Below are positions 1,549 to 27,703 of a stretch of 38,353 bases of DNA, piece by piece. The DNA is taken from positions 1-38,353 of the forward strand of contig CAJATL010000161.1 in NCBI GenBank assembly GCA_903944895.1, read 5' to 3'. The notes beneath the pieces were generated by a model. The model did not search any database. It was given only the letters and a program-made list of their open reading frames with translations, and was not told the origin of the DNA. The position numbers were made by a program, and so were the translations under genes. Numbering within the stretch: the first letter of the stretch is position 1; each line of letters begins with the position of its first letter. Source of the stretch: an uncultured Bacteroidota bacterium. Lineage in GTDB: Bacteria > Bacteroidota > Bacteroidia > Bacteroidales > 4484-276.

Positions 1549-1583
1549 CGTACTTAAGTTTTAGTAGCTACAATTTATAAATT

Positions 1584-3234: not shown

Positions 3235-3409
3235 AATTTTAAGCTATTAATCCGGTTTGAAAATCATTCTTTGCAGAAGGCAGAGCGCTAAGTGCAAAGC
3301 GCAGAGCGTAAGATGCCAAGCACCGGGCAAAATTCTTCTTCCTTTATTTCTTCTCCTAACATGTTAATCCTGTTTATCCTGTAATCTTGTGTAAATCTTG
3401 TTATCTTGT
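3235..3409. repeat. Repeat-rich spacer on the cas4 side of the GxxExxY gene
   Basis: The spacer contains a G/A-rich stretch with repeated gcagagcg and gcaaagcg elements (about 3280-3312), then variants of taatcctgtttatcctgtaatcttg (about 3362-3410) like those on the other side of the GxxExxY gene. The last repeats run up to, and slightly into, the end of cas4. No gene is seen. Confidence 0.7.
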
Positions 3410-3913: not shown

Positions 3914-3962
3914 GGTTAAAAAAATTAAACCCCTGACAGGGATTGAAGTACTGCCAAGGAAG

Positions 3963-8061: not shown

Positions 8062-8087
8062 TTTAATAAAATTTTAAAGTTTGATGA

Positions 8088-8447
8088 TTATTGATTATCT
8101 GTATTTTCCATTGTACTATTAATAGGTGTTTCCTTTTTTGCAAAAGGCTTAAAGTAATTTTCCATAAAGCCAAATGCACATTCTTCTTTATCATATCTTG
8201 ACTGGAATTCCTTGACTTTTTGTGCAAGATCATACGAAGTTTGAAAGGTAAATTTGGTTTTGTCGTGCATGATTAGTTTTTGCTCAATTTCATTTTTGAG
8301 TTTAATGAAATCGGCCATGTTTCCAATTCTTCGGGTAAGATTACCCACATAGTTTTTCTCAAATGAATTAATCTCCTGGCTCAAGTTCCTTGCTAATCCT
8401 CCAAGCATGAGTCCGATTTGGTAACTTTCTGATGATGTAATTTCCAT
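8088..8447 (-). CDS. Probable internal translation product Cas11b
   Basis: Within cas8b an in-frame ATG at 8447 would give a 119-residue, mostly helical protein (MEITSSESYQIG to the shared stop). In several I-B, I-C and I-D systems the small subunit Cas11 is made from an internal start in the cas8 or cas10d gene. The sequence just before this ATG is A/T-rich (AAAAACGATAAATTT), as is usual for Bacteroidota translation starts, and the size fits Cas11. The internal start is an inference; nothing in the sequence proves its use. Confidence 0.45.
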   Translation of the reverse strand: MEITSSESYQIGLMLGGLARNLSQEINSFEKNYVGNLTRRIGNMADFIKLKNEIEQKLIMHDKTKFTFQTSYDLAQKVKEFQSRYDKEECAFGFMENYFKPFAKKETPINSTMENTDNQ

Positions 8448-10088
8448 AAATTTATCGTTTTTAGTGTTTTGTATTTTTAAAAGAAACTTTAAATCAAATT
8501 TTAAGAAGTTAAATTTTGCATCTCCTGATCGGATACTGAACTCCACATTTTGAATAAAAGCGGATAAGAGTACTTCGTCATGTGAGTAGTTATCGGAATA
8601 AATGAGTGGGATAACTTTTAACAGGTGCGATTGATATTTCGGATTGGGTTTGTATGATATTTTTCCGGTTTTGGGATCTGTTTGTGGGTTTCCTAAAATA
8701 CAACGAAACGAATAATCAATAGTTAATGGGTTTAATTCTTTCTCCGTTCTGAGAAAGTTTTTTCTTTCTTGATTAATTTCAGACGAGATTCGATGAATTC
8801 TTTCTTTCGTTTGTCTTAATTTACTTTTCTCTAAACCCGTAAGCTCAATTAAGTCTGAATCAGGGGAAGACATTCCTCCTTTTTTGCAGAATATCAAATC
8901 GAATGAAGTGATATTTTTCTCATCATCAGAAAAGAAATTGAAAAGGGGATCAATTGTGTTTTTAATAATCGCTTTATTTCCAGCAATAACTTTTGCTTCA
9001 TCTCTTTTTTCAAGAAAGTCATCATAATCTTTTGTAGTTAGATTTTCCCCTCTCGGTAGTACTATTAGTTTGATGTCAGTTCCAGAAATAACCTTTCCTT
9101 TTCCTGTATAATCTATCGCATAAAATAGGTCCTGCAAACTATCATTCTGAAAGTTTTTTGATTTGTGTTTGTTTGCACCTTTGAATGAGGGAAATTGAAT
9201 ATCATTTTTTTTATCTCCCGAACAAAGGGTTTTATAAAGAGTTTTTTTCAAAACCAATCCATCTGCAGTATTATCTACGAATTCCGAAAGAACTTTCGCA
9301 TTCAACAAGTTCATGTCCTCTATAAAATGGTACCAGTGTTGTTTTTCCTGAAATTCAAAATGTATGAATACAGCCAAATTGGTGAGATCAAAAAGTAATT
9401 TTTTTTGAATCTCATTGCAAATGGACAATTCAGATGGTATTCCTGCTTTCTTCAAATTTGCATTTGAAGTTTTCTGAAAATTTTGTGCTAAAGAAATAGA
9501 ATAGAGATTTTCTTCATCGTCAAGAAAAGTTTTGATGGTAATATCGTTTTTATTTTCAAAATAATATGGCCAGACAGGAATAAACTTAAGAATCCGTTCA
9601 ATGTATTTGATGTTTTTTTCTAATTCCTCATGAAATTGTTTAATCATTAAACTAGGATCGTCCTTTTTTGAATTGATAATGTCTCTGTAATCACTCAATC
9701 CACGATGAAAGGAACTTGCTCTATAAGCGGCAGCACGATTGAGATCTTCTATCCTGTAATAACCACCTTCGCTTGATTCAATAAGGCCGTCCTTTTTTAC
9801 AGTGGCTCTTTTCTCATAATAAATATCTCCAAATACATACTTTACTAATCCATCACTATCTGAAGTCTTAAACTTCAAGTAGTAAAGTTTACTTCGCTCA
9901 TTCTCCGGCGTAATCTTCATTCCATTCCAGTCAAAGTTAAAATCAGAATTTACCGGAATCGTAATACAAATTGGCCATTCTCCTGTTTTAATATCTTTTG
10001 GGCAAGGCTCTACATATTTAAAATATTTTAAGCTATTCTCCGAATTACGGAGAACTTTGCCTATTTGAAGTACAGTATCTAAACTCAT
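8088..10088 (-). CDS. cas8b: Cascade large subunit Cas8b (Csh1/TM1802-type)
   Basis: This 666-residue protein lies directly upstream of cas7 and cas5, where the I-B large subunit is expected, and its length fits. The N-terminal part (MSLDTVLQIGKVLRN; YFKYVEPCPKD) and the region around YRASSFHRGLSDYRDI resemble the TM1802/Csh1 group. Cas8 recognises the PAM and starts R-loop formation. The last 119 residues are mainly helical (QIGLMLGGLARNLSQEINSF and following) and correspond to the small-subunit region. There is no separate cas11 gene. Upstream lie four 16-bp palindromes at a regular 22-bp spacing (10166-10247). Confidence 0.93.
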   Translation of the reverse strand: MSLDTVLQIGKVLRNSENSLKYFKYVEPCPKDIKTGEWPICITIPVNSDFNFDWNGMKITPENERSKLYYLKFKTSDSDGLVKYVFGDIYYEKRATVKKDGLIESSEGGYYRIEDLNRAAAYRASSFHRGLSDYRDIINSKKDDPSLMIKQFHEELEKNIKYIERILKFIPVWPYYFENKNDITIKTFLDDEENLYSISLAQNFQKTSNANLKKAGIPSELSICNEIQKKLLFDLTNLAVFIHFEFQEKQHWYHFIEDMNLLNAKVLSEFVDNTADGLVLKKTLYKTLCSGDKKNDIQFPSFKGANKHKSKNFQNDSLQDLFYAIDYTGKGKVISGTDIKLIVLPRGENLTTKDYDDFLEKRDEAKVIAGNKAIIKNTIDPLFNFFSDDEKNITSFDLIFCKKGGMSSPDSDLIELTGLEKSKLRQTKERIHRISSEINQERKNFLRTEKELNPLTIDYSFRCILGNPQTDPKTGKISYKPNPKYQSHLLKVIPLIYSDNYSHDEVLLSAFIQNVEFSIRSGDAKFNFLKFDLKFLLKIQNTKNDKFMEITSSESYQIGLMLGGLARNLSQEINSFEKNYVGNLTRRIGNMADFIKLKNEIEQKLIMHDKTKFTFQTSYDLAQKVKEFQSRYDKEECAFGFMENYFKPFAKKETPINSTMENTDNQ

Positions 10089-10165
10089 TAAAGATTTTTT
10101 TTTAATTTAATATTTACCACAAAACCACACTTACCTTCCCAAAGAACAAAGCGTACTACACCCTG

Positions 10166-10253
10166 AAAGTACACGTACTTTACCTAAAGAGTACACATAC
10201 TTTGGATAGAAAGTACACGTACTTTACCTGCAAAGTACGTGTACTTTTACGGC
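10166..10253. promoter_or_regulatory. Four palindromic sites in a 22-bp tandem array before cas8b
   Basis: Four 16-bp near-perfect palindromes start at 10166, 10188, 10210 and 10232, exactly 22 bp apart. Copies 1 and 3 are AAAGTACACGTACTTT, copy 4 is AAAGTACGTGTACTTT (its reverse complement) and copy 2 is AGAGTACACATACTTT. A degenerate fifth copy (AAAGCGTACTA) lies near 10148-10158. The 22-bp spacing is about two DNA turns, so bound dimers would line up on one face. The array lies 78 bp upstream of the cas8b ATG and 20 bp after the HU-like stop. It looks like an operator array for the effector genes; the regulator is unknown. Confidence 0.6.
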
Positions 10254-10272
10254 TTACCCGGGAAGTGGAATT

Positions 10273-10656
10273 TTACACTTTCTTGAATCCGGCATCGTTA
10301 ATGGCTTTTTTAAGCCTATCGCCTGGGCGATAATTGATGCCTACTTCAATGATACTGCTGGAAGTAACTTCTGCTTCGGTTGCTTCGCCCTTGCTGCTGA
10401 TCGTCGGGTAGAGCGATCCGAGTTTTTCCAACCTTACAATCTTGCTTTCGGCAAGTTTGTTCTGAATTACATTTTCCAGCGCCACAATCACACCACGAAT
10501 ATCGGGTTCGGATAGTGAACTGAATTTTTCGATGTCTTTCACTATTTCATCAATAGTTGCTTCGCCATCGGTTACAATTGCAGCATAAAATTTCTTGGTG
10601 CCGCCACCAACCACTCCGGGTTGTCCTTTTTCTCTTACTGTAAATTTGATTGCCAT
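10273..10656 (-). CDS. HU-like DNA-binding protein
   Basis: This 127-residue protein matches the Bacteroidota HU-like (HU-HIG type) family. It has an N-terminal extension (MAIKFTVREKGQPG), the helical part EATIDEIVKDIEKFSSLSEPDIRGVIVALENVI, and the beta segment SKIVRLEKLGSLYPTISSKG that precedes the DNA-binding arm. Such proteins bind and bend DNA. Placement between cas6 and cas8b on the cas strand is unusual. A role in spacer integration, as IHF has in type I-E, or in regulation through the adjacent palindromes is possible but only inferred. The family also occurs as orphan genes in these genomes. Confidence 0.88.
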   Translation of the reverse strand: MAIKFTVREKGQPGVVGGGTKKFYAAIVTDGEATIDEIVKDIEKFSSLSEPDIRGVIVALENVIQNKLAESKIVRLEKLGSLYPTISSKGEATEAEVTSSSIIEVGINYRPGDRLKKAINDAGFKKV

Positions 10657-10763
10657 GACTCAAATTTTTAATGGTTTGTGATAATTTATTTAGTTTTCAA
10701 AAAAAAACTCAATTTTATGTTACTAATCCTGTATTTACTAAAACTACTCGTTTAAAAATCATA

Positions 10764-11564
10764 CTAACGCTGCACCTCCCCACACCCAAAACCCAAAGCA
10801 TTCATTGCTCCAAATCCGCTGTCTAAGCCTGTCTTTATCAGGCTGGGTGGGGCAATAATCTCAAAATCGAAACGATAGCCACGCACTTTTACTTCGGCAT
10901 CAGTAAATGCTTTGATAAGTTGCAACTGCGATTTTGGGTTTTGGCTTAGACACCGGAAATGCAGATTTGCCGGTTCAAAAAGTTCTTCATCCTGGGAAAT
11001 ATGTCGGTTGTATGCATTGTGTTTGTCGGTCAGATTTTTGAAAAACAGTGCTTCGTATTCCAGGTCGCCGGGTTTAAGGTACTGTTCCTGTTTGTCTGTC
11101 TCTGTTTTTTTACTTACAACAACGGGAGATAGTGTCCGGATAATCATTCTTTCGGCTAACACTGGCAATGCGAGCATCTCGATCGTTCCAACTTCCATTT
11201 CGATTTTGCTGATTCTGTCGCCAATTTCGGCGCGTTGATCACTGAACAGACCGGAAACAAATTTTTCGGCGGTTACGGGAATTTGAAAAGCAAGAATTAA
11301 CTTAGCCCTTTCGGCAAATATTTCCATCCGGTCGGTGCCTTTAATCACCCTAAAGGTGTTTGTTGGAAATTGAAGATTTGAAAAGGTGAAGAGTTTAAAG
11401 GTTTTTTGGTTCTCCATCCGAAAGCCTTGTTCATGTAGGAATTCCGCGAACTTCATGTCGGCACGGGCAAGCACTTTGTAAATCCAGGCACTAAGGGGGT
11501 ACTGATAATTCAGTGGCAGCACCTGCCTTTTTCCACTAAGTTTAAATTCGATTTTGATGCGCAT
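10764..11564 (-). CDS. cas6: CRISPR RNA endoribonuclease Cas6
   Basis: This 266-residue RAMP protein shows the Cas6 signature. The N-terminal strand MRIKIEFKLSGKRQVLPLNYQ is followed by a helix holding His44 (FAEFLHEQGF), a candidate catalytic residue. The C-terminus carries the glycine-rich loop SGFGAMNALGFGCGEV at about 249-264. Cas6 cuts the precursor in each repeat, leaving ATTGAAAC as 5' handle. It is the first cas gene of the locus. A related palindrome (AAAAGTACACTTTT) lies 43 bp upstream of its ATG. The gap of 107 bp to the HU-like gene shows nothing notable. Confidence 0.95.
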   Translation of the reverse strand: MRIKIEFKLSGKRQVLPLNYQYPLSAWIYKVLARADMKFAEFLHEQGFRMENQKTFKLFTFSNLQFPTNTFRVIKGTDRMEIFAERAKLILAFQIPVTAEKFVSGLFSDQRAEIGDRISKIEMEVGTIEMLALPVLAERMIIRTLSPVVVSKKTETDKQEQYLKPGDLEYEALFFKNLTDKHNAYNRHISQDEELFEPANLHFRCLSQNPKSQLQLIKAFTDAEVKVRGYRFDFEIIAPPSLIKTGLDSGFGAMNALGFGCGEVQR

Positions 11565-11671: not shown

Positions 11672-11740
11672 GACGCTGTCAGGAGCTGTTCACGCTGTCA
11701 AGTCACTTAACCTGACAGCGTCCGAAGGACCTGTCAGCGT
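11672..11740. repeat. REP-like palindromic repeat, copy A
   Basis: GACGCTGTCAGG (11672-11683) and CCTGACAGCGTC (11711-11722) are inverted; between and after them lie further CACGCTGTCA and CCTGTCAGCGT boxes, so the element can fold into a large hairpin. It lies in the gap between the HIRAN gene and cas6, with copy B next to it at a period of 89 bp and a partial copy at 14256. Such GACAGCGTCC/GGACCTGTCAGCG elements look like the REP-type repeats of Bacteroidota. Confidence 0.75.
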
Positions 11741-11760
11741 TTATTCCGTTATTTATTTTC

Positions 11761-11832
11761 GACGCTGTGAGGTGCTGCGCACGCTGACAGGTCACTTTCT
11801 AAACCTGACAGCGTCGCCAGACCTGTCAGCGT
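11761..11832. repeat. REP-like palindromic repeat, copy B, overlapping the HIRAN gene end
   Basis: This copy starts GACGCTGTGAGG and ends CCTGTCAGCGT, with the same order of boxes as copy A. Bases 11792-11832 are also the last codons of the HIRAN gene, so the repeat has been recruited into coding sequence. Confidence 0.75.
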
Positions 11833-12280
11833 TTAATACTATTTCAACCTCTACCCTACCCCAGGTTGGCATTTCGGGGTTAAAGGCGGTGATGGTTGTT
11901 TCCAAAACAACACCCTGATCGAGCATATTCGATAGGACGGTGTTTAGTGCTGCCTGGATATATCCGATTTTTGTAAGTTCATAATAAATGGCGATGGCGT
12001 TGCTGTCGTGGCGGTTTTTGGGTTCCCGAACCAGGGATAGCGGAACTCCCGCAGTAAATCCATGTTCGACAAGGTGTCCTTTATGGTATTGATAGCCGGC
12101 AACATGGGAGGATAAAAGGGTAATCTGTTGCCGGCTATTCAATGTTAAGGGGCCTTTTGTGCAGGATGGGGACGGGGATGGTGAGAGGGTAGTTTTTGGA
12201 ATAGCACCTGAGATCGTTCCCGGAATCATTAATCCGAGACCGCCTAACAATATATTTCTGAAAAATTCGACGCGTTTCAT
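11792..12280 (-). CDS. HIRAN-domain protein with N-terminal signal or anchor
   Basis: This 162-residue protein has a hydrophobic N-terminus (MKRVEFFRNILLGGLGLMIPG) that looks like an export signal or anchor. A low-complexity SPSPSPS linker follows, then a HIRAN domain over about residues 50-150. The domain shows the usual conserved points: VAGYQYHKG, PLSLVREPKNRHDSNAIAIYY and KIGYIQAALNTVLSNML. In other proteins HIRAN binds free 3' DNA ends. A secreted or membrane-anchored HIRAN is hard to reconcile with that, so the role is open. The last 13 residues (ADRSGDAVRFRK region) are encoded by a REP-like repeat. Its neighbours are cas6 and the WYL regulator. Confidence 0.85.
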   Translation of the reverse strand: MKRVEFFRNILLGGLGLMIPGTISGAIPKTTLSPSPSPSCTKGPLTLNSRQQITLLSSHVAGYQYHKGHLVEHGFTAGVPLSLVREPKNRHDSNAIAIYYELTKIGYIQAALNTVLSNMLDQGVVLETTITAFNPEMPTWGRVEVEIVLNADRSGDAVRFRK

Positions 12281-14155: not shown

Positions 14156-14255
14156 AGGGAAGACAGAAGTCGGCAGTTGCCAGTTTGCAGTCGGCAGTTG
14201 GACAGTCAGTCAGTTGCAACAATTAAAGATTTATTTTCTTATTCACCTCTTTAAG

Positions 14256-14287
14256 CCTGACAGCGTCCGCAGGACCTATCAGCGTTT
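14256..14287. repeat. REP-like palindromic repeat, partial copy C
   Basis: The half-element CCTGACAGCGTCC followed by GGACCTATCAGCGTTT matches the second half of copies A and B at 11.7-11.8 kb. It lies between the START gene and its terminator. Confidence 0.65.
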
Positions 14288-14301
14288 AATCTCAATCCAA
14301 A

Positions 14302-17997: not shown

Positions 17998-18630
17998 TTA
18001 ATCTTCCAAAACTTCAACCTGCCCGTATGATCCGCAGGCGTCGCAGATGAGCAGGTTCATAGTGTGGATTTTACCGCAGGCCCGGCACTTAAACTTTTTC
18101 ATTTTTATTTCTTCAAGTGACTCCTGGTCTGGCTTTTCTTCTTCAGCATCAACAGTTTTAAATTTCAACTGAACCATGAAAGGTTCTCTTCCGAGATAAA
18201 TTACCTCGTTATCTTTAATTTTTTCCTGGATATGTTTGTGACAGTCACGCTTGCTTTGACCGATAAATGTGCCGTTGAGGGAGTTAAGATCGGTGAGTAC
18301 GTAATTTCCATCCAGATACTCGATTTTGCAATGCTCGCGGCTGATCTGTGGGATCTTTGAAAAAACATCGGCACCTACACTTTGGCGACCTAAGACAATA
18401 ATTTCGGCATGTGGAATATCAATCCAGGCATTTGTTTTTTCATAAATTAAAATGAGGCCATCGAGGCGTTTTACCTTGTGGGACTCGATTTCGATGTTGA
18501 ATTTTTCATCCGAATCCCTGGCTTCGAGATGACTGATGGGTGAATTACACAATTTGCACACCGCCGGCTTTGTATCCGGAGCATCAAATTCGTTGTCTTC
18601 AAAGCAATAATCGCAGGTAATTTTGTACAT
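17998..18630 (-). CDS. FHA-domain protein with N- and C-terminal zinc ribbons
   Basis: The 210-residue protein has an N-terminal zinc ribbon (C6-x2-C9 and C25-x2-C28), a central FHA domain over about 75-150, and a C-terminal ribbon (C182-x2-C185 and C196-x2-C199). The FHA phosphothreonine-binding residues are present: Gly81-Arg82, Ser97-Arg-Glu-His100, and Asn116-Ser-Leu-Asn-Gly120. It should read phosphothreonine marks, most likely those made by the kinase in the same cluster. It starts 2 bp after the radical-SAM stop and is the last gene of the cluster. Cytoplasmic; no signal or membrane segment. Confidence 0.93.
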   Translation of the reverse strand: MYKITCDYCFEDNEFDAPDTKPAVCKLCNSPISHLEARDSDEKFNIEIESHKVKRLDGLILIYEKTNAWIDIPHAEIIVLGRQSVGADVFSKIPQISREHCKIEYLDGNYVLTDLNSLNGTFIGQSKRDCHKHIQEKIKDNEVIYLGREPFMVQLKFKTVDAEEEKPDQESLEEIKMKKFKCRACGKIHTMNLLICDACGSYGQVEVLED

Positions 18631-18632
18631 CT

Positions 18633-19247
18633 TTACAAGTCAAGCTTTATTCCTGAATCTTTTAAATATCCGATCAAACTATTCATATCGTCCTTTTTAG
18701 GCACTCCGGCCATAAAAATCTGGTTCGCTTTGGTGACATTAAGCGACCATTTTCCATTAAAAAACTGATTGTTGTCCTTTACACTTTTCCCGCCTTCAAA
18801 AGTATAGAAATTCTGATTAGATGAACCGCGAATGTTGTCGCTGACGGCGAAATCCCTTTCAAAACGTCCATCAATCAGGTAATCCAGCGAATTCATGAAT
18901 AATTTGTCGGGGAATTTTTTGGTCAATTCTTCCAGGGTAAAACCCGAATAAACCAAAATATTGAGGATTGATTTCATTTTTATAAAACTTCCGAAAGCCA
19001 CGAGCGCATTGTACTGCTCAAAAGGCTCGCCACCGGTGATGGTGATGCCGTCGAAATGGTTTTTTATGGTAAGAATCGAGGAGGCAAGTGAGGCAATCTC
19101 GATGTTTTTGCCACCATTTTCGGTCCAGAGTTCAGGATTAATGCATCCTTTGCAAGCCAGGCTGCAGCCCTGAACCCAGATGGCCAGCCGCTTTCCGGGG
19201 CCAAGATTATAAACCGGAAACTGAATCCTGTTTATTTTCCAATACAT
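18633..19247 (-). CDS. Small radical-SAM protein (NrdG-like 4Fe-4S activase type)
   Basis: This 204-residue protein has the radical-SAM motif C28-x3-C32-x2-C35 (GCSLACKGC) and the SAM-binding GGEPF at about 72-76. The compact size and the WVQGCSLACKGCINPELW segment put it with the NrdG/PFL-activase-like group, which makes a 5'-deoxyadenosyl radical. No glycyl radical enzyme is encoded here, so the target is unknown. It overlaps the AAA+ gene by 16 bp and is followed at 2 bp by the FHA gene, so it is translationally coupled in the signalling cluster. Confidence 0.9.
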   Translation of the reverse strand: MYWKINRIQFPVYNLGPGKRLAIWVQGCSLACKGCINPELWTENGGKNIEIASLASSILTIKNHFDGITITGGEPFEQYNALVAFGSFIKMKSILNILVYSGFTLEELTKKFPDKLFMNSLDYLIDGRFERDFAVSDNIRGSSNQNFYTFEGGKSVKDNNQFFNGKWSLNVTKANQIFMAGVPKKDDMNSLIGYLKDSGIKLDL

Positions 19248-21130
19248 TCGAACTTCACTTTGTTTTCGTCATCTTCGGCAACCACAACCCTGAAATTAAG
19301 GTTTTCGGAGGTATTTTGCTCGTACATAAAATTTGCGATGCCGTTTTTGATGTAGGTTTCAACCCGGTTGTTGATGCCACGGCCTCCGTTGTTGAGGTTG
19401 TTGAGAATATAATATTGTCTGAACTTTTCGACAAACTGCTCGTCAAATTCAAAATTGCAATTTTTCTGTTTCAACAGATTTTTCCTGATCATGTTGAGGC
19501 TTTTCAGCAAAATCATTTTATCGATGTCGGGCCTGATGAAATCGAAAACCACAAAGTTGTCACCAAAACGATTGAGGATTTCGGGGCGGTTGAGTTTGGT
19601 GTTAAAGAAATTCTGAATTTCAGACATGATATTTTTGGAAGTCACCTCATAGCTGTCACTGTAATTGATGTTTGGAATCCGCCGTCCGTGCTCATCTTCG
19701 GTGTAAACGCCGAGGTTGCTGGTGAAAATAATGAGTGTTTCGGTAAAATACACCGTTTCACCTTTCCCGTCGGTAAGCCGGCCATCGTCGAGAATCTGGA
19801 GAAATTTATCGAAAATTACGGGATGAGCCTTTTCGATCTCATCAAAAAGCACTATCGAAAAAGGTTTGGCGCTTACCTGGCCCGTTAACTGTCCACCTTC
19901 CTGATAACCCACATAGCCGGGTGGCGATCCGATAAGTTTGGTGTCGGAGTTTGAATCGTTATACTCGCTCATGTCGAACCTCAAAATGGCATCTTCATCA
20001 TTAAAAATGAGTTCGGCAAGCGATTTTGCAAGCTCGGTTTTTCCAACTCCGGTTGGACCGGCAAAAAACATCACCCCTTTGGGTTTATTTTTGGTGTTTT
20101 TAACATCAATCGAATGAAGCCCCAGCTTAGCGCGGCGAATGATCTCGACGCTTTTTCTGATGGCCGGGTCCTGCCCCATCACCCGCTTTTTGAGTTCATT
20201 TCCGGCATTTTCGATTTTGGATTTTTCGAGGTCTTCCCAGAAATTTTCGCGGGTTCCATATTTAAACAGATCGATGATTTGCTGAATGTTGTTGATGTGG
20301 ATTTTTTCCTGTTGCGAAATGGTGATCAGGTTTTCGAGTTCCTGATTGGCCAGGCCATCCGTAAGATCGGCAAAAATGCTAATGATTTCCTCAAAATTCA
20401 CAGCTTCGCCTTCGTGGTAAAAACGCTGGGCCTGAACCCTAAAAAAGCGGTTTCGTTCTTCCTTATTGGGTTTTTTGATTTCGATGCCTTTGGTGAGCGG
20501 ATTCTCAAGCAAAATCCAGCTTGGGATGTCGTTGAGTTTGTCGCACAGGAAGATCAGGATGTTGCGCATTCCGCCCTTTTCAGGAAAAAGCCGTGCGTCC
20601 TGGGCCGACTTGAGCAATTTGAGGAAAATCACCCGCTCATCTTCGTTCAGGCTGTTGGGATCGCCCGAAAACCGGGAGCTGTAATTGATGATTCCAGCCG
20701 AAACCTTCTTGTTGTTCGACATCAGCAACCTGAAAAACGACAAGGCGTCCGAGAGTTTTTTCTCGACATTTCCGATCTTTTTCGAATCGAGAAAAGATTT
20801 TGCATGAGGTACGTTATCGATTAAATAGCTGATAATATTGTCACGATTGAGGTCAGTGACCGGGTCGGATGAAATATCAAGGCCATCGATGATGTCGTAA
20901 TAGGCGATTATTTCGAAGCCTTCATTTTTAAGATAAAGCTTCAGCAAAAGCTGGATGTCGTTAAACCGCGCCCATTGGAAGTCGTGCTGGTTTGATGCAT
21001 CTTTATAATTCACCGGAAAATAGTAACAATCGTAAACATTTCCGTAAAGGTAAAACTGCGATTTGAGCGATTGAAACCGTTTAAACTCCTGCATCCATCC
21101 CGGAAAAAACTTTCTGTCGGAATCTGACAT
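19232..21130 (-). CDS. ClpB-like AAA+ ATPase, first AAA domain degenerate
   Basis: The 632-residue protein has two parts. Residues about 1-300 resemble an AAA domain without a Walker A motif (the WILLENP-x-KGIEIKKPNKEERNRFF segment looks like an AAA sensor/lid region). The second part is a Clp/Hsp100 D2 ATPase: Walker A GPTGVGKT at 358-365, pore loop GYVG at 405-408, Walker B VLFDE at 427-431, sensor TSNLG, and arginine finger region RPEILNRFGD. It should be a hexameric unfoldase. The usual ClpB N-domain and coiled-coil M-domain are not apparent. It lies between a methyltransferase gene and the radical-SAM gene, which it overlaps. Confidence 0.9.
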   Translation of the reverse strand: MSDSDRKFFPGWMQEFKRFQSLKSQFYLYGNVYDCYYFPVNYKDASNQHDFQWARFNDIQLLLKLYLKNEGFEIIAYYDIIDGLDISSDPVTDLNRDNIISYLIDNVPHAKSFLDSKKIGNVEKKLSDALSFFRLLMSNNKKVSAGIINYSSRFSGDPNSLNEDERVIFLKLLKSAQDARLFPEKGGMRNILIFLCDKLNDIPSWILLENPLTKGIEIKKPNKEERNRFFRVQAQRFYHEGEAVNFEEIISIFADLTDGLANQELENLITISQQEKIHINNIQQIIDLFKYGTRENFWEDLEKSKIENAGNELKKRVMGQDPAIRKSVEIIRRAKLGLHSIDVKNTKNKPKGVMFFAGPTGVGKTELAKSLAELIFNDEDAILRFDMSEYNDSNSDTKLIGSPPGYVGYQEGGQLTGQVSAKPFSIVLFDEIEKAHPVIFDKFLQILDDGRLTDGKGETVYFTETLIIFTSNLGVYTEDEHGRRIPNINYSDSYEVTSKNIMSEIQNFFNTKLNRPEILNRFGDNFVVFDFIRPDIDKMILLKSLNMIRKNLLKQKNCNFEFDEQFVEKFRQYYILNNLNNGGRGINNRVETYIKNGIANFMYEQNTSENLNFRVVVAEDDENKVKFECIGK

Positions 21131-21252
21131 ATTGTGATATTTTAAAATTCATAAAAAAACTGCCCCCGACTTGCCAATTTCGATGAAGGCGTCCAAAATT
21201 AAAGAAATCGCCGCAATCACAAAAAATAAAGCTATCGAAAAGTGGTGAATGA

Positions 21253-21831
21253 TTACCGGAGTTTAAAAACTACGCTCCTGCTCATCCAGATTTTGGGATG
21301 ACCAACAGGTTTTAATCCTGCATTCAGAGCGATATTAACTTCCTTTTGAAAGGCTTTGAGGGGCACATGAAACCGTGGCTCAACAATCATATAAAAGCTT
21401 TCAGGCTTCATCATGGCGTGGATTTCGGTTATGAAATGCTCTTTATCGTCAACCTCATGAAGCATCCAGAAATTCAGGATAAAATCAAATTTTGCGCTTA
21501 AGCCGATGCTTTGAATTGTCGATTGATGAACGGAGATGGTTCTTTCCAAAGGTTTACCCTTAATTTTCCTGGTAAGCATATCCAACCCTGATTCCTGAAT
21601 GTCGCAGGCAACGACCTTGCCACTTTCGCCAACAATTTTTGCTAATCCAACCGAGAAAAAACCAGGTCCGCATCCGATGTCAGCAGCCGACTGACCGGCT
21701 TTAAGGTAAGGCGAAAACATTTTGTTGGCATCGTGAATATATTTTCGGAGGCCAATATCCAACGTTGAGTAAAATTCTGACGGACAAACGTGTTTATCCA
21801 TCAACAACAGCTTTCTGATTATCTTTTTCAT
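21253..21831 (-). CDS. Class I SAM-dependent methyltransferase
   Basis: This 192-residue protein has the class I Rossmann methyltransferase core. Motif I is DIGCGPGFFSVGLA at about 51-64, followed by acidic motif II (VVACDIQ) and NFWMLHEVDD as motif IV. Methyl donor is S-adenosylmethionine; the acceptor is unknown. The N-terminal MDKHVCPSEFYSTLD contains a lone Cys. It starts 10 bp after the coiled-coil gene. The following gap of 121 bp to the AAA+ gene shows no clear terminator, so co-transcription is plausible. Confidence 0.88.
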   Translation of the reverse strand: MKKIIRKLLLMDKHVCPSEFYSTLDIGLRKYIHDANKMFSPYLKAGQSAADIGCGPGFFSVGLAKIVGESGKVVACDIQESGLDMLTRKIKGKPLERTISVHQSTIQSIGLSAKFDFILNFWMLHEVDDKEHFITEIHAMMKPESFYMIVEPRFHVPLKAFQKEVNIALNAGLKPVGHPKIWMSRSVVFKLR

Positions 21832-21841
21832 TGATTAAATT

Positions 21842-23383
21842 CTATTCCAAAAATCGTTGATTATTTAAAGTGTTCTTTTTTCCCTTTTTTGAAACTGATT
21901 TTTTAACCCAGGCTTTAAACTTTGGAGGAATCTGAACGAGCGCCTTTTCGGAGGATGAAATCTCATGTTTGAGGTCAATATTCAACCCTTCTGATTTCAG
22001 ATGTCCGAGCATTTTTTTAAACTCCGTGCAGGTTTCGTCCATTTCGGCAAGCCTTGTTTCCTTCTGTTCATGGGTCAGCTCGTTGCGGTTTTCAGGAATC
22101 AGAAAATTATATAACATTTTGCCTTCGTTGTCAAACCGAACATTGATGAAATTTTCCTGGTTGGGCACAGCGAGCAAAAACACATCATCCTTTTCAAAAT
22201 CAATCACCTCCATGTCGGTCATTACTTCATAGTTCAAATCCCTTAAACCCGCAATGGTCCGGGCTTTGATGTATTTAATTTCTTCTTCGTGCACCAGCCG
22301 CTCCTTGCGTGCAATTTTATCGTTTTCGATCAGGTTATTTAAAGCCGAAGCCAAATTATCGCAATATTCCTTTTTCAGGCGGTCGTGCTCCAGAAAACTG
22401 AGGATTTTTGTTTCGAGTTCTGCCGATTTTTCCAACATATTATTTTCAAAATGATGCGCTTTTAACTGGTTTAAAACGTGCATCAAAATAACCCGATACG
22501 CTTCCTGGGACTGAGCGTTCCTGATTTCGCCAATAAATTCGGTAAAAAAATAACTTTCCGAAATTTTATGCTTTTGAAGTAAGTCTGCAAATTTCGATTG
22601 AAAATGCTGGGCTAGTTTTGGGTCAGAAATTCCGTTTAACAGTTCTCTGATTTTAGTTAGGATTTCCTCGCTGCTTTCAGTTTTACCAACCGATGCAGCA
22701 TGGTGGTCGTCCTTGCCGGAAACCAAAAAAACTTTACCCCTGCCAACCAAAGCCTCGTTTTCCGAAAATTGCGTGCTGATTAACGAATTCAGTTGCTTTT
22801 TGCTTTGCTCGAAACTATTTTCAATTTGGGTTTTGATCAAATCAGCTTTTAGCCTGAAATCTTCAGAAAAAGGTGGCAAAGCAAAATCAAACCGTATTTT
22901 GGCCGCGTGTTCAGCCAATTCGTTGTATTTGGAAGCTTCTGGAATGTTTTGCCTGATGTGATTCAGAAATTGCTTTTTGATGGTTTCGAAATTTCCGTCA
23001 AATTCCTTTACCTTGATTTCCAGTTCAAGATAAACCTGATAACTCGTTTCGAGGCTTTTAAAACGGGCCAGTTCATCATCGAACTCAATTTTCAAAACCT
23101 CCATTTTTTGACTTGTTTCCGAAAATTGATTGTAAAATTCGTTAAACTGGCTTTGATTTAAAGTTTCCAGGTTTGAAGGCCTAAAAATTTCCAGCAGCCC
23201 TTCCATAGTTTTTTGCCCGTTTTCGATAAAGGCTTCATTTTCATAACGTATCCCTCGCAAATCGTCGGTTAGTTTTTTTTCTTTAAGCTCAGCCATCAAC
23301 ATTTCCAGCTCACACCGAAGTTCAAAAATCTGTCGGAGGTGCTTATCAAAAACGCGCACTGAATAGCTTTTGGGTCCACTCAT
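21842..23383 (-). CDS. Coiled-coil protein of unknown function
   Basis: I do not recognise a known domain in this 513-residue protein. It starts MSGPKSYSVRVFDKHLRQIF; extensive heptad-like charged and hydrophobic helices run over about 15-190 and 270-390 (for example LELEIKVKEFDGNFETIKKQF). A more globular part around 390-450 contains short strands (VFLLAVPNQENFINVRFDN). No signal or membrane helix is visible. The ATG follows the kinase stop directly (TAA-ATG), so translational coupling is likely. It may be a scaffold or kinase substrate of the cluster; this is a guess from position. Confidence 0.8.
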   Translation of the reverse strand: MSGPKSYSVRVFDKHLRQIFELRCELEMLMAELKEKKLTDDLRGIRYENEAFIENGQKTMEGLLEIFRPSNLETLNQSQFNEFYNQFSETSQKMEVLKIEFDDELARFKSLETSYQVYLELEIKVKEFDGNFETIKKQFLNHIRQNIPEASKYNELAEHAAKIRFDFALPPFSEDFRLKADLIKTQIENSFEQSKKQLNSLISTQFSENEALVGRGKVFLVSGKDDHHAASVGKTESSEEILTKIRELLNGISDPKLAQHFQSKFADLLQKHKISESYFFTEFIGEIRNAQSQEAYRVILMHVLNQLKAHHFENNMLEKSAELETKILSFLEHDRLKKEYCDNLASALNNLIENDKIARKERLVHEEEIKYIKARTIAGLRDLNYEVMTDMEVIDFEKDDVFLLAVPNQENFINVRFDNEGKMLYNFLIPENRNELTHEQKETRLAEMDETCTEFKKMLGHLKSEGLNIDLKHEISSSEKALVQIPPKFKAWVKKSVSKKGKKNTLNNQRFLE

Positions 23384-26300
23384 TTAATCGGTAATTTTCG
23401 GTTGAATTTTAAACGCCACCGCCATTTCAGTCTTTTCCTCATGAATATGTCCGATGTTCATCATTCCCTGTTTTCGGTCATTTACGCCAGCTTTTGGTTG
23501 ATTTTGCATGATAATCGTAAAATAACCAATCACGAGGTAAATAAAAATTGAAATGAACAAGGGCAAAAGCCTGAATTTTTTATAGGTCTGGAAAAATGCA
23601 ATCACAATTTTGATGAGAAGCCGGGTAAGTAAAAACAGGTAAAGAAAAATGGCAAATTTCTCGGATGAGAGCACAATGCCAGCCTTTTTTCCAAAGACAA
23701 AAATTTCGCTAAAGAACTGATCAATTAAAAAATAGACGCCAATAAAAATGAGCGGGCCAAAAATGAAAAATAGCATCAGGCTGTTTAGAAGTGAGCCGTG
23801 GTAGTCAAAAAATGAATTGAACATGGATTTTTCCTTTCGGAAACTTAATATCGGCAAAAGCAACAAAATGCCGGTGAGCAGATTAAGCGAGTAACCTGCA
23901 AACAGCACTATTGAATAGTATGAGCGGGCCATCCGCACCGAAACCATATTGATTGAAGGTGAAATGCTATACATCACTTCTTTAAAAACTGAGTGATCCA
24001 ACAAATAATTGGCAGTAAAAAAAATCATCCCAAAAACAGGAAAAAGATAAAGCAAGTAGTTGGGAATGAACGTGTAACTATTGAAATACTCGAGCTGCTT
24101 CTTATTGGCAAGAACTTGTTTAAATGATTCGGATGATCGTCCGGCCAATGCTTTACGTGGGATATGATGTTTCGATAAAACCTGGCTTACAAACCGCTCG
24201 TAAAGCGAATCGTCATTGGCAAACTGGCCTTTTTTTATCACCACGTTGTCAGGTTTTGAAGCACTTAACGTTTCACTGCTTTTAATTCCTTTGGACTCGA
24301 AATAATCGCCTGCCAAAATGGTATAATCATAATCAACAGTTGCTTCGCCAACCACCGGGATATCAAAAACAATATTTTTAACCCTGGTTTCGATGGTTGC
24401 GTGACTCCTGAAAACTTTAAGCAGAAAATCCTGCAAAGCCAGCCCATGATAAGCATTGAGATTATGATAGGTGAAAAATGCATCAAGTTCGATGGAGCAG
24501 ATTTTCTGATTATATAATTCGGGGTTTGCCACAAAATACAAGGCCACCTCTTCGACAGTGTTCAACGATTTCAGATTATCGGCACGAAACGAACGGCCCG
24601 GTATAAACTGGTAGAACAGGTCGATTATATTTTCGTCGGAAAGTTGTTTGTAATAATTTGCACGCAATGTTGCAAAATCACCTGTTGCAGTTCTTATCGC
24701 TTTGGAAATTTTATCAAAAACAGGGCTAACTGTCGATTTAAAGGCAATACGGTCGTGCAGTCCAATTTGAAGCATCACAAATTCGAACTCAAAAAACTTC
24801 ATCAAAACTTCATTAAATGAAGCTACTTTCCATAGGTCATCGAGAGCTGTAAAAAAATCTCTGACTTTATTATTAAAATTTCCCTTCTGATAAAGAAAAA
24901 TCTGCTCGTCGCCAACTTCCAATGGTTTCTCGAAATCGAGCAGGCGCAAAAGAACAACCCTCAAAATATCGAAGCCTGCTGATTGATAAAAACGAAATAG
25001 TTCATAAAGAAAATCCAGGCTTTGCCGGCTCTCTAAATGCCCGTTAAGCACGCTTGCAAGTAATTCGATATCATCTTTACCTTTAAACAAAAAATGAAGA
25101 CAAGTATCGCTTCTGGTAACAAACGTAACCAATTGTTCCTTTGAACATTGCTGTAAATAACCCTTTCGCTCAAGGAGCATAAAAGCATCATCGTAGCTCC
25201 GTGGATTACTCTCAAAATAGGCGCAAACATGATCCAGAGAACCGTATTGGTTTCGATTTATATCCTTTAAACCTCTGCTTTGATTAAAAGCATAGAAGAT
25301 GTTGATCAGGTGCTCATTACGTAATTCTACAAAAAGCCCGGCAATAAATTCTGAAAAGTCAGGCTGATAATCGGTGCCAATAATTCGGGTAATTTTCAGA
25401 AAGGCTTCATCGATAATTTGTTTTACTGGCTCTGGGGATTTTACTCGAAGCTGCCGGACAGCAAATTCAAATTGGAAAAAATAGAAACGCAAAGTTGCAA
25501 AATCTGTCATTTTCCACCGATCATCAAGCATCGCAATAAACTGATTGATGTCTTCGGCTAATTTCTGAATATTGTTAAAATCAAATTTTACCAGGCCAAT
25601 GCTGACGGTGCGCAAGGGTGCAAAATAAAAGAGGATAGCTTCGCGAACATAATCGATCCCATAAAATTTTTTGTAGTAGGAGATCATCTTATCAAAAAGG
25701 CGGCGGTTTTCGTCGCCCTGCAACTGCGAAACCCACGTCAATAATATGCTGTAGCCTTCTTTATCCTCGATCAGTGCTTCATAAAAAGGATTTCCTGCTT
25801 CGATAAAATCGACAACTTCCTTGCTGGACCTGAGGATAGAATCACCAATTCTGATAAAATTCCGGTTTCCGTAAGCTGCATAATTTACGCTTACGGCGCG
25901 CCCCAACAGCCAGTTTGTGACTTCCTCCTCCCCCCAGCGGTTGTTGTAATCCTGAAGGGTGAGGCCTTCGATGAGTTGGTTGAGGTGTTGATATTTTTCT
26001 TCAAAATCGATAATCTGAACCCCTTTTGTGCGGCGTTCAAATATCCGGCGAAGGTTTTTCCGGGTGACGTTTTCGGGGTAAAGCAGGTGCAACACGATCA
26101 TTCCGAGGCTGTAATAATCATTCTTTTCCGAAACGATACCAAAAGCCTGTTCGGGAGCAAGGTAAAACTCTGTTCCTTTGGTAATGGTGGTGTGACTGAG
26201 TTCTTTTTCGGAGGACTTTTCGAAGGATTTTGCTGAGCCATAATCGCCTATGACAACCTGGGTCTGGGCTTTATCTAAAAAATAAACATTCTGAGGTTTG

Positions 26301-26956
26301 AGGTCGCAATGGTAAATCTTTTCGCTGTGCAAGGCTTTAATTCCACGGTGGATTCCAGCTATTACAACGTTTTCGAGAAACTGGGGCGAATATTTTTCCT
26401 TAAGATTTTCGACAAAAAGGAGGTCACCCCCTTCAGCAAAATCACTGATTTCGAAGCAAAACTTATCAAGGTACTTGTTGGGGCCTGTTCCAAAGTCGAA
26501 AAGATGCAGGATGTCGCGGCCTTTGAGTTCACGAATACGCTGCAAAGTGTCGGCGCTAGGCTCGAGGTGTTCATCATCAAATTCGTAATACAATTTAAGT
26601 GCATACACCGCACCATTTTCGCTTTTTACCTTGTAAATAATTGCCTCGCCGGATTTTCCCTCGCCCGAAATCATTCCGGTAATTTCGTATTTTAAACTAT
26701 TCAACTCCAGTTTATCACCGATGCCAAGCTGGTGTGCGGAAGTACGTTTTTTTTCGGAAGAAACCGACAAATAGGGTAAAGTTCGGCCATCTTTTGGAAG
26801 CTGGACATTTTTTTCAGGAATTTCGATATCAGGGAAGTTGTCGAAACTCTGGTAGGCAACCGTATTGGCAAGGTTCGAAACAAAAGTTTCGCCTTCAGGC
26901 TGTTGTCCTTCGGGATAAGGTTTTGTTTTTAATACATCATCAAATATAACATCCAT
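23384..26956 (-). CDS. Membrane-anchored Ser/Thr protein kinase, 1190 residues
   Basis: The kinase domain spans about residues 87-350, after a short N-terminal tail. It has the VYALKL lysine (K121), the catalytic loop HCDLKPQN (D218, N223), DYG in place of DFG (D238), and APEQ at 267-270; HCD replaces the usual HRD. A long region (about 370-940) follows with weak, apparently repeated helical modules. The C-terminus has about five membrane helices (about 950-1170, e.g. LLYLFPVFGMIFFTANYLL and LFISIFIYLVIGYFTIIM), so catalysis faces the cytoplasm. It lies 12 bp after the PP2C gene, and the partners are probably FHA and AAA+ proteins downstream. Confidence 0.92.
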   Translation of the reverse strand: MDVIFDDVLKTKPYPEGQQPEGETFVSNLANTVAYQSFDNFPDIEIPEKNVQLPKDGRTLPYLSVSSEKKRTSAHQLGIGDKLELNSLKYEITGMISGEGKSGEAIIYKVKSENGAVYALKLYYEFDDEHLEPSADTLQRIRELKGRDILHLFDFGTGPNKYLDKFCFEISDFAEGGDLLFVENLKEKYSPQFLENVVIAGIHRGIKALHSEKIYHCDLKPQNVYFLDKAQTQVVIGDYGSAKSFEKSSEKELSHTTITKGTEFYLAPEQAFGIVSEKNDYYSLGMIVLHLLYPENVTRKNLRRIFERRTKGVQIIDFEEKYQHLNQLIEGLTLQDYNNRWGEEEVTNWLLGRAVSVNYAAYGNRNFIRIGDSILRSSKEVVDFIEAGNPFYEALIEDKEGYSILLTWVSQLQGDENRRLFDKMISYYKKFYGIDYVREAILFYFAPLRTVSIGLVKFDFNNIQKLAEDINQFIAMLDDRWKMTDFATLRFYFFQFEFAVRQLRVKSPEPVKQIIDEAFLKITRIIGTDYQPDFSEFIAGLFVELRNEHLINIFYAFNQSRGLKDINRNQYGSLDHVCAYFESNPRSYDDAFMLLERKGYLQQCSKEQLVTFVTRSDTCLHFLFKGKDDIELLASVLNGHLESRQSLDFLYELFRFYQSAGFDILRVVLLRLLDFEKPLEVGDEQIFLYQKGNFNNKVRDFFTALDDLWKVASFNEVLMKFFEFEFVMLQIGLHDRIAFKSTVSPVFDKISKAIRTATGDFATLRANYYKQLSDENIIDLFYQFIPGRSFRADNLKSLNTVEEVALYFVANPELYNQKICSIELDAFFTYHNLNAYHGLALQDFLLKVFRSHATIETRVKNIVFDIPVVGEATVDYDYTILAGDYFESKGIKSSETLSASKPDNVVIKKGQFANDDSLYERFVSQVLSKHHIPRKALAGRSSESFKQVLANKKQLEYFNSYTFIPNYLLYLFPVFGMIFFTANYLLDHSVFKEVMYSISPSINMVSVRMARSYYSIVLFAGYSLNLLTGILLLLPILSFRKEKSMFNSFFDYHGSLLNSLMLFFIFGPLIFIGVYFLIDQFFSEIFVFGKKAGIVLSSEKFAIFLYLFLLTRLLIKIVIAFFQTYKKFRLLPLFISIFIYLVIGYFTIIMQNQPKAGVNDRKQGMMNIGHIHEEKTEMAVAFKIQPKITD

Positions 26957-26968
26957 TGTCGCACCGAA

Positions 26969-27703
26969 TTATCCGCTATTTCCAGTTTTCTTAACCTCGA
27001 TAAAAATACAACTAATATTATCCGGCGCACCATTTTGGATGGCTTTATAGAAAATAAAATCAGCCTTTTCGCGGAGTGGTTTTGAGTTAGAGAGTATTTT
27101 TTCGAGTTGGGAACTGCTAAGTGCCTTGAAAATCCCATCTGACGAAACCATAAAAATGTCGTCGGTCATTACCAAATCCTGTCCTGAAGAAATCAGGATG
27201 TCCAACGAACTTATCAAACCACCAAAATAGCTGGTGATGGGGCTGTTTGGGATTTCGGAAGACAAAACCTGGTCGTGGGTCAGGTTTTTTAACTTTTGAT
27301 TTCGAAACAAAAGTACCCGGGAATCGCCGGCATTTAGAACTCTGTAGTGGTTTTCGTAAAAAAGTATTCCCGATAACGTGGTTGCCATGCCTTCATATTG
27401 CGGATGGTCCTGGCCAAATCTGATGATCTGATGGTTGATCTGATGGCACAAACCCGACAATTTTTCTCTTTCAGGATTTTCGTTTACGATTAATTTTTCG
27501 TTGAGTTCCCGGAGCAACAAACCGGCGGCAACATCGCCAAACGGGTGCCCTCCTACTCCATCAGCAACAAAACACCGTGTTGATCCTTCAATAATAACCG
27601 AATATGTCCCTTCATTCCTCACCTGGTCGTGAACCAGAATTACATCCTGATTCATTTCACGAACGGCGCCTTTATGCGTAAAAGCCTCAATATTAAAAAT
27701 CAT
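26969..27703 (-). CDS. PP2C-type Ser/Thr protein phosphatase
   Basis: This 244-residue protein has the PP2C (PPM) metal motifs: N18-Q-D20 (REMNQD), ADGVGGH (D48-G-V-G-G), MATTLSGI, NAGDSRVLLF, SSDGIF and the C-terminal DNISCIFIEVK. It should remove phosphate from Ser/Thr with two metal ions, reversing the kinase encoded 12 bp downstream. It is the first gene of the cluster; the spacer upstream is repeat-rich. No membrane segment is seen, so it is cytoplasmic. Confidence 0.95.
   Translation of the reverse strand: MIFNIEAFTHKGAVREMNQDVILVHDQVRNEGTYSVIIEGSTRCFVADGVGGHPFGDVAAGLLLRELNEKLIVNENPEREKLSGLCHQINHQIIRFGQDHPQYEGMATTLSGILFYENHYRVLNAGDSRVLLFRNQKLKNLTHDQVLSSEIPNSPITSYFGGLISSLDILISSGQDLVMTDDIFMVSSDGIFKALSSSQLEKILSNSKPLREKADFIFYKAIQNGAPDNISCIFIEVKKTGNSG

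Follow-up and report, generated by a model that had tools for sequence, protein, structure and literature searches.

The window analysed here, a stretch of 38,353 nucleotides from an uncultured Bacteroidota bacterium (contig CAJATL010000161.1 of assembly GCA_903944895.1), contains a cluster of seven genes at positions 17998-27703. Six of them form a conserved set, encoding a PP2C-type phosphatase, a membrane kinase, a coiled protein that starts with MSGPK, a Clp-type AAA+ protein, a radical S-adenosylmethionine (SAM) protein and a protein with a forkhead-associated (FHA) domain and zinc-ribbon-like cysteines. The locus is read as the phospho-switch version of a core made of an unfoldase, a radical SAM enzyme and an adaptor, to which exchangeable arms are joined. 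The AAA+ and radical SAM proteins very probably form a functional unit with the coiled protein. That the whole locus works as a phosphorylation-gated protein-remodelling switch is proposed at nearly even confidence.

Gene content of the cluster

All seven genes lie on the minus strand, and transcription runs from the phosphatase gene (27703) to the FHA gene (17998). The junctions are tight: 12 bp separate phosphatase and kinase, 0 bp kinase and coiled protein, 10 bp coiled protein and methyltransferase, 122 bp methyltransferase and AAA+ protein, and 2 bp radical SAM and FHA proteins, while the AAA+ and radical SAM genes overlap by 16 bp. An earlier note on this DNA had described seven compact minus-strand genes with gaps of 0-121 bp; all the open reading frames (ORFs) are in place, and one junction measures 122 bp. 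The domains it assigned are upheld by Pfam, with matches to FHA (2e-11), Fer4_12 for the radical SAM protein (1.3e-30), AAA_2 (4.8e-50), Methyltransf_31 (6.4e-14), Pkinase (9e-24) and PP2C_2 (8.8e-10). The PADLOC matches fall on shared domains: mad6, MkoA and PD-T4-6 for the kinase, PDC-M37B and DolB for the AAA+ protein and mad2 for the methyltransferase, with very weak matches of the radical SAM and PP2C proteins.

The class I SAM methyltransferase (192 aa, 21253..21831) is an accessory gene. It also occurs in L007/G591 and is absent between the coil and AAA+ genes in L008 and L169. As a core member it was rejected: among the loci read, only the window's genome and G591/L007, of the same genus, carry one, a statement that for genomes G027 and G129 covers just the loci read. 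Since no genus but that of the window showed a methyltransferase, six genes are counted in the conserved set. The gene set named by the earlier note thus stands for the six genes that recur elsewhere, and not for the methyltransferase, a local extra.

A core shared between phyla

The tightest association is that of the AAA+ and radical SAM genes. In a scripted check of 21 loci, 18 contain the AAA+ gene (the other three being L140, L141 and L258), and in 16 of these 18 the radical SAM gene is its direct neighbour in the same orientation, at a spacing of -23 to +26 bp. The 18 loci represent four phyla. The 16 adjacent pairs come from three phyla (Bacteroidota, Bacillota and Pseudomonadota) and from one viral contig; the two non-adjacent loci are the cyanobacterial one from Geminocystis (radical SAM gene 8.7 kb away) and G027 (radical SAM gene elsewhere). 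The loci are not independent of each other, as the window and L007 come from the same genus and several are rhizobial plasmids.

The coiled protein was found in 3 of 198 genomes of the order, in 3 of 393 in a larger sample and in 5 of 12 genomes of the window's family. The AAA+ profile matches four of the same 198 genomes, namely the three with the coiled protein and G017, an overlap with a hypergeometric chance of 3e-6 if the genomes are independent. Since the profile (A3) was partly built from G129, the match in G129 is by construction; G027 is independent, and the G017 match is an AAA+ protein of the second type. The gene set is more than a chance assembly, as it is met again in further families and in a second phylum.

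Within Bacteroidota, G129 shows a single run of kinase, coil, AAA+, radical SAM, FHA and PP2C genes. L007/G591, taken as one record on account of the same contig number and coordinates, has coil, methyltransferase, AAA+, radical SAM and FHA genes. In G597, PP2C, kinase and coil genes are followed by 1.17 kb without a methyltransferase and by the AAA+ gene at the contig end. The cluster is only partly visible in G592, G596 and G597, where contigs end inside or near it. All six genes are present and unlinked in G027, with PP2C, kinase and coil at one place, AAA+ and FHA on another contig and the radical SAM gene about 67 kb from the coil. Linkage in relatives, on which the earlier note had made its reading depend, gives a mixed but on the whole favourable picture: it holds for G129 and for the Aristaeella plasmid described below, is lost in G027, which keeps all six genes, and is partly visible in G592, G596 and G597.

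Two side observations concern these genomes. Directly downstream of the G129 cluster (L008 16869-19974 and L009 66-1589) lie, in tandem, the genes of three proteins that look alike (515, 507 and 507 aa), each with three hydrophobic segments; the two scanned have no clear Pfam family. The window's own genome carries a second phospho-signalling cluster (L013 153-4164, C163), composed of a caspase-like peptidase, a PP2C, an FHA protein, a protein with no match and an FHA protein with a zinc ribbon.

Exchangeable arms

Outside the phylum, protein searches covered a plasmid collection and phage and viral contigs. A tblastn search of 72,556 plasmids with the AAA+ protein gave 20 records with at least 80% coverage, among them six from Moellerella and four from Rhizobium leguminosarum, each species counted once among the 18 loci. 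The neighbourhoods examined were those of ten AAA+ records, six around coil matches (L145 not analysed), one shifted and one enlarged.

On a plasmid of Aristaeella lactis (Clostridia), a DUF4011 helicase-nuclease is followed by genes for a kinase, an MSGPK protein, FHA, radical SAM, AAA+ and PP2C proteins, DUF6273 and a kinase. This is the same phospho-set in another phylum, directly beside a helicase-nuclease, which scores 1308 bits against PDC-S37 (PADLOC). In Caballeronia and Rhizobium, the AAA+ and radical SAM genes are accompanied by an MSGPK protein and by a large protein with kinase, DUF4011, superfamily 1 (SF1) helicase and restriction endonuclease (REase) parts, which measures about 2100 aa and is split at some of the loci; the Caballeronia fusion scores 498 bits against PDC-S37.

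A helicase type of cassette occurs in Acinetobacter, Photobacterium, Moellerella, Polaromonas and Leisingera, and comprises a large AAA-domain/helicase protein, a PIN protein, a coil of 367-381 aa, the AAA+ and the radical SAM protein; helicase and PIN were verified for Polaromonas and Photobacterium and are given as annotated for the other three. The MkoA-like helicases of the three core-bearing cassettes scanned score 340, 310 and 310 bits. G017, of the window's own order, has such a cassette with Ppx/GppA replacing PIN, and viral contig L206 has one with an unrecognised protein at the PIN position. In G017 (L175 5114-8407) the Ppx/GppA domain forms the C-terminus of the replacing protein, so that a (p)ppGpp or polyphosphate output is possible. 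The Geminocystis locus combines the radical SAM protein, GTPase-like genes, an MSGSPK coil and the AAA+ protein; one of its proteins matches DO-GTPase2 weakly (18.6 bits, cut-off 27). Integrase, ArdA, dGTPase and anti-phage dCTP deaminase genes are neighbours in single loci.

The kinase, PP2C and FHA proteins look like one of several arms, and the part found across phyla is the AAA+ and radical SAM pair with the coiled protein. Since the arms found with this core in other bacteria are of helicase-nuclease, helicase-PIN, helicase-Ppx/GppA or GTPase-like kind, the family may have a part in conflicts with phages or plasmids.

Some loci found along the way stand apart. L140, a locus without AAA+ or radical SAM gene, has a SIR2 protein nearby. 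On viral contig L258, an integrase-like gene (a 416-aa ORF, recognised by eye) lies beside the genes of an SF1 helicase-REase protein and of a coil starting with MSGPK; the stretch has no kinase, AAA+ or radical SAM match and might be a two-gene minimal form. On a Rhizobium leguminosarum plasmid (L144 4861-7242), multiubiquitin, ThiF-like and DUF6527 genes are found near the remnant of an MSGPK-type coil.

The AAA+ protein

Gene 4 (19232..21130) encodes the Clp-type AAA+ protein of 632 aa. Its first AAA domain (residues 1-300, 20231..21130) is degenerate: GxxxxGK[ST] is lacking, and the lid matches VCP-like ATPases (1e-4). The second (residues 302-620, 19271..20227) is of the Clp D2 type, with Walker A and B. 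Judging by these motifs, the first ring domain looks dead and the second active, in keeping with the pseudo-D1 arrangement noted earlier. The apparent N-domain Walker A of L142 is merely scored as present since that ORF lacks the N-terminus. The loop before RPE, in which the ClpP-binding tripeptide of ClpA and ClpC sits, has no [LIVM]G[FLM] in the window; this tripeptide is missing from all 18 family members and from both ClpB-like controls, a comparison made with no ClpC or ClpA positive control. From residue 6 to residue 632, the predicted AlphaFold2 (AF2) structure can be superposed on ClpC/ClpB with VIA (Z about 21, root-mean-square deviation 10-16 Å); D2 alone fits at 4.0 Å over 298 residues. 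A ClpB disaggregase was rejected as identity, given the first domain without Walker A and a score of 256.8 bits against an NCBIfam ClpB cut-off of 1232.1; the ClpA cut-off is likewise unmet.

The family has to be distinguished from more distant ATPases. An N-domain profile (A6) matches 93 of 395 genomes across the phylum, the window's own included. Those matches were rejected as family members, as the six loci examined from the 92 other genomes all have a classical AAA C-terminus and not a Clp D2. In other classes of the phylum, L031, L033, L038, L044, L045 and L053 encode another kind of AAA ATPase, about 570-630 aa long, with only the N domain in common with the window's protein. The narrower profile A3 matches two of the 395, the own genome and G519 (26 bits, an unrelated-looking protein). 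Among viral contigs, the 80 loci kept match the AAA+ profile from residue 180 or later, mostly from 240-316, and thus in the Clp part only. A distant DNA search of E. coli gave 1479 records, none with at least 80% coverage, and the 30 matches listed are all Clp/ClpB; none of the 147 records of a phage tblastn search covers 80%.

The radical SAM protein

The product of gene 5 (204 aa, 18633..19247) resembles NrdG and the activase of pyruvate formate-lyase (PFL). Its CxxxCxxC codons (residues 28-35, 19143..19166) are invariant in the 11 sequences of alignment A5. Across the family, CxxxCxxC with a preceding GP motif is present in 17 of 18 members (not in L146), GSxNQ in 17 of 18 (not in L025, where the ORF has only 126 aa) and GGEP or GGDP in all 18.

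NrdG is the best named family in NCBIfam, at 100.7 bits for a cut-off of 126.1, and the PHROG match is to the small subunit of anaerobic ribonucleotide reductase (RNR). The nearest solved relatives are PFL-activase (4e-17) and YydG, enzymes that act on peptide C-alpha hydrogens. The partner subunit NrdD (TIGR02487) was detected in none of five draft genomes, the same search being positive in 6 of 14 controls. The radical SAM protein therefore serves no recognisable anaerobic RNR there.

The MSGPK coiled protein

Gene 3 (21842..23383; alignments A1 and A7) encodes a coiled protein of 513 aa, without a match in the Pfam, PADLOC, NCBIfam or PHROG family libraries. A profile search of PHROGs and the PDB returned weak coiled-coil-like matches only. 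The protein has conserved ends flanking a variable helical middle. Outside the cassettes with an MkoA-like helicase, the MSGPK start (codons at 23369..23383) is kept by 14 of 15 coil proteins, the fifteenth having MSGSPK; within those cassettes, none of seven has it. This tally omits the partial or unscanned coils of L007/L018, L144 (the remnant), L025 and L145, and includes L140, L141 and L258, which came from searching with an MSGPK coil. A scan of genome contigs with a single sequence of this fast-evolving protein found one locus, and the G027 coil gave no match in the plasmid collection.

The C-terminal domain (about residues 338-473, 21965..22372) is linked between groups by profiles, some of the links being weak. 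The profiles were trimmed to the last 170-185 residues, and L258 and L206 were added, after weaker full-length comparisons. The trimmed profiles pair Bacteroidota with Clostridia at 80%, the helicase type with Geminocystis at 94%, Clostridia with Geminocystis at 50% (aligned over 27 columns only), Bacteroidota with Proteobacteria at 45% and Bacteroidota with the helicase type at 42% (69 columns only). Among 22 coil proteins, the Bacteroidota model matches the Clostridia coil at 1.6e-4, the proteobacterial model the G027 coil at 5.5e-6 and the helicase-type model that of Geminocystis at 1.4e-6. Unrelated ORFs reach at most 3.8% against the Bacteroidota profile and at most 2.6% against the helicase-type profile once leaked relatives are set aside; this control of 139 ORFs compared profile with single sequence, for these two models, and is not matched to the profile-profile pairs of Bacteroidota with Proteobacteria and with the helicase type. 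The leaked relatives were the top ORF of the Bacteroidota model (35%), which is the L144 coil remnant, and two ORFs scoring 100 with the helicase-type model, one being the L024 coil from an earlier start and the other presumed to be of the same kind. The C-terminal domains are probably one domain family, with moderate support from these profiles.

In the AF2 model, the N-terminal strand and the C-terminal sheet are brought together. This composite superposes on KA1 domains with VIA (Chk1, Z 8.2, 2.5 Å, 87 residues aligned; Snf1, Z 8.3), within the background range, and a Foldseek search of the PDB has a best E-value of 0.27, for a target other than KA1. A KA1-like composite is a weak lead only.

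Kinase, phosphatase and FHA proteins

The membrane-anchored Ser/Thr kinase (gene 2, 1190 aa, 23384..26956; PF00069, 9e-24) has its kinase domain at residues 98-346 (25919..26665), with the catalytic motifs GEGKSG, HCDLKPQN, DYG and APE. A Kyte-Doolittle scan predicts five hydrophobic or transmembrane segments at residues 968-1149 (23510..24055). Homologues occur in G129, G027, G597 and G596. The PP2C-type Ser/Thr phosphatase (gene 1, 244 aa, 26969..27703; PF13672, 8.8e-10) scores 124.7 bits against the NCBIfam model Stp1_PP2C, under the cut-off of 230; its homologues adjoin the kinase in L010, L169 and L170 and follow the FHA gene in L008. In the FHA protein (gene 6, 210 aa, 17998..18630; PF00498, 2e-11), the FHA domain (residues 79-147, 18190..18396) is flanked by cysteine pairs, which were identified by eye and are zinc-ribbon-like.

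Proposed working and alternatives

From this gene content we infer a sequence of events together with its trigger and the substrates of kinase and radical SAM enzyme. The core triad would consist of a half-dead Clp-type AAA+ protein, a glycyl-radical-activase-type radical SAM enzyme, encoded by overlapping genes, and a long coiled protein. The membrane kinase would sense a disturbance and phosphorylate the coiled protein or the AAA+ protein; the FHA protein would read the phosphothreonine and dock the unfoldase. The AAA+ protein might then pull on the coiled protein or on its client, and the radical SAM enzyme might modify the backbone C-alpha of the exposed peptide, creating a long-lived switch, with PP2C resetting the phospho-state. 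If the pair works together, proteins would be unfolded for chemical marking and not for degradation. The earlier note's suggestion of a signalling or stress/defence module fits as a field, but missed the AAA+/radical SAM/coil core that crosses phyla with its arms. A putative defence role of the window's own version is somewhat less than an even proposition.

A bolder reading sees a new trans-phylum class of conflict systems, in which the unfoldase would hand an unfolded peptide to the radical SAM enzyme for an irreversible backbone mark, possibly on the SGPK glycine in proteins that have this start. A short-lived signal, by phosphorylation or from nucleic acid, would become a committed response that the exchangeable arms execute. 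This we regard as doubtful. The MSGPK glycine is weakened as a target, since cassettes with an MkoA-type helicase have the radical SAM protein without MSGPK, and L140, L141 and L258 have MSGPK without a radical SAM gene in the stretch examined.

Several observations weigh against the proposed remodelling core and its switch. L140 and L141, with transposases nearby, and L258 carry the MSGPK coil with neither AAA+ nor radical SAM gene in the examined stretch. Among the seven coil-bearing genomes tested, the AAA+ gene is found in six (not in G596) and the radical SAM gene in four (not in G592, G596 and G597, the assemblies of which are fragmented). Most relatives of the radical SAM protein lie elsewhere: only one of 80 viral-contig loci, L206, also has the AAA+ gene, and the radical SAM gene alone is a poor marker of the gene set. 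The full-length coil profiles pair less well than the trimmed ones (10.6, 3.0, 1.1, 38.9, 88.8 and 1.6%), and the remaining five of the ten trimmed pairs stay at 0.8-6.8%. The AF2 models of the coil and AAA+ proteins are of middling confidence (pLDDT 74 and 69). The plasmid location of the outside relatives is a sampling effect, because plasmids were where the searches reached. Finally, helicase and nuclease genes are missing from the Bacteroidota cluster, the parts in G027 lie scattered between other genes and in this do not resemble a mobile cassette, and the FG-GAP gene on the flank is shared with G596, a member of the window's family (389 aa aligned at 48.6% identity), which suggests vertical descent.

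These last three points equally suit housekeeping envelope or stress signalling, as does the membrane kinase with its catalytic motifs present. Kinase, PP2C, FHA protein and unfoldase would then regulate proteostasis or a process at the membrane in Bacteroidota, and relatives with a defence-like look would merely use the same remodelling core. Such a role is set against the very patchy presence of the genes, with the coil in 3 of 393 genomes of the order, and against the Aristaeella plasmid, where the phospho-set stands directly beside a PDC-S37 helicase-nuclease; the CRISPR-Cas locus 6.4 kb away in the window also speaks against it, though six ORFs lie between. We hold it to be a serious alternative that is rather less probable than not.

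Much less credible, and in our view very unlikely, is a variant of TerY-P or of the PpkA-PppA-Fha switch of the type VI secretion system (T6SS) from which the vWA or secretion partners were lost and to which neighbouring genes were added. Kinase, PP2C and FHA/zinc-ribbon protein are all present, and the FHA protein's best NCBIfam match is the T6SS protein TagH, at 35.9 bits far under the cut-off of 120.25. Yet the seven proteins have no vWA match and the kinase no zinc-ribbon match, no type VI gene was found among 19 window proteins scanned with Pfam, and the part shared across phyla is the AAA+ and radical SAM pair; to our knowledge, neither the TerY-P nor the T6SS switch has such a part. The most improbable alternative, an ordinary NrdG (or QueE-like) protein placed in the operon by chance beside an ordinary ClpB-like chaperone, agrees with the best named family and the PHROG match of the radical SAM protein, but both proteins remain under their cut-offs, NrdD was not found in any of the five draft genomes tested, and 16 of the 18 loci, from three phyla, have the two genes side by side.

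The so far unexplained kinase-helicase-nuclease, helicase-PIN, helicase-Ppx/GppA and GTPase-like cassettes would find one testable frame in a core whose arms can be exchanged. Such a core also points to a way in which conflict systems of bacteria could be connected to Ser/Thr phosphorylation.

Other elements in the window

Positions 1-11564 hold a CRISPR-Cas locus, of type I judging by Cas3. Its array extends from 1 to about 1100, with a 30-nt repeat every 64-67 bp and 17 copies in one repeat family. It is accompanied by genes for Cas1 (1584-2588), Cas3 (3963-6425), Cas5 (6410-7120), Cas7 (7117-8061), an unmatched 666-aa protein in the Cas8 position (8088-10088) and a Cas6-like protein (10764-11564), the last of which ends 6.4 kb from the cluster. 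Between the cas6-like gene and that of the 666-aa protein, four tandem 22-nt units with a palindrome-like AAAGTACACGTACTTT core (10143-10247) have an operator-like look. An inverted-repeat-like element of the type CCTGACAGCGTCCG...GACCTGTCAGCG is present in three copies (11698-11746, 11795-11837 and 14243-14291).

Comparison with known systems

No named system with a Clp, radical SAM and coil core was found in the open-access literature searched or in the scans of Pfam, PADLOC, NCBIfam and PHROGs, and the same searches showed no system in which a radical SAM enzyme is paired with an unfoldase driven by ATP, so the earlier note was right not to recognise one. It had also set the cluster apart from TerY-P for want of a vWA protein, and this holds. 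The TerY-P triad consists of a PP2C, a kinase fused to a zinc ribbon and a vWA protein (TerY). The likeness lies in the PP2C (PF13672), the kinase and the zinc ribbons; the cluster differs by its added AAA+, radical SAM, FHA and coiled proteins. No vWA family of Pfam was detected in the seven cluster proteins, two downstream or ten further window proteins, and for the window's kinase protein Pfam returns kinase matches only, not the kinase-zinc-ribbon fusion.

From ClpC and ClpB, with which it shares the two-domain architecture and the D2 motifs, the AAA+ protein is set apart by its dead-looking first domain, the unmet ClpB and ClpA cut-offs and the adjoining radical SAM gene. The radical SAM protein has PFL-activase and NrdG as nearest solved relative and named family, and differs in that the cluster contains no glycyl-radical enzyme and NrdD was not found in five of five genomes.

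Mokosh is approached by some core-bearing cassettes, whose SF1 helicase matches MkoA (310-340 bits, three scanned); this match falls on the helicase portion, later in the profile, and the AAA+ and radical SAM proteins are additional. For MkoB, in the three cassettes scanned, the PIN protein of L026 scores 19.3 bits and the second proteins of L023 and L175 have no match. For the window itself Mokosh, which calls for an MkoA helicase with MkoB or for MkoC, was rejected, as the seven proteins have no helicase match and the kinase matches only about 100-260 MkoA positions through its kinase domain. The Aristaeella module and the Caballeronia fusion resemble PDC-S37/Hhe (DUF4011 helicase-nuclease) of PADLOC, a single-gene candidate judging by its code, which is here tied to a kinase, an MSGPK protein, an AAA+ and a radical SAM protein. 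A P. aeruginosa hotspot described with DUF4011 and a radical SAM gene on the flank (PMC10250203) is a possible relative of the present core.

A similar logic is offered by the MoxR-vWA and GTPase-centric conflict systems (Kaur et al. 2020, PMC7159879), in which a remodelling AAA+ protein goes with a third conserved component and with effectors that can be exchanged; some of these systems include a radical SAM component and a kinase-PP2C-vWA theme. Their AAA+ protein is of the MoxR or FtsH type with a vWA partner, whereas that of the window is of the AAA_2/Clp type, has no vWA match in its cluster and is encoded beside the radical SAM gene. The weak DO-GTPase2 match in the Geminocystis locus is a further point of likeness between the two.

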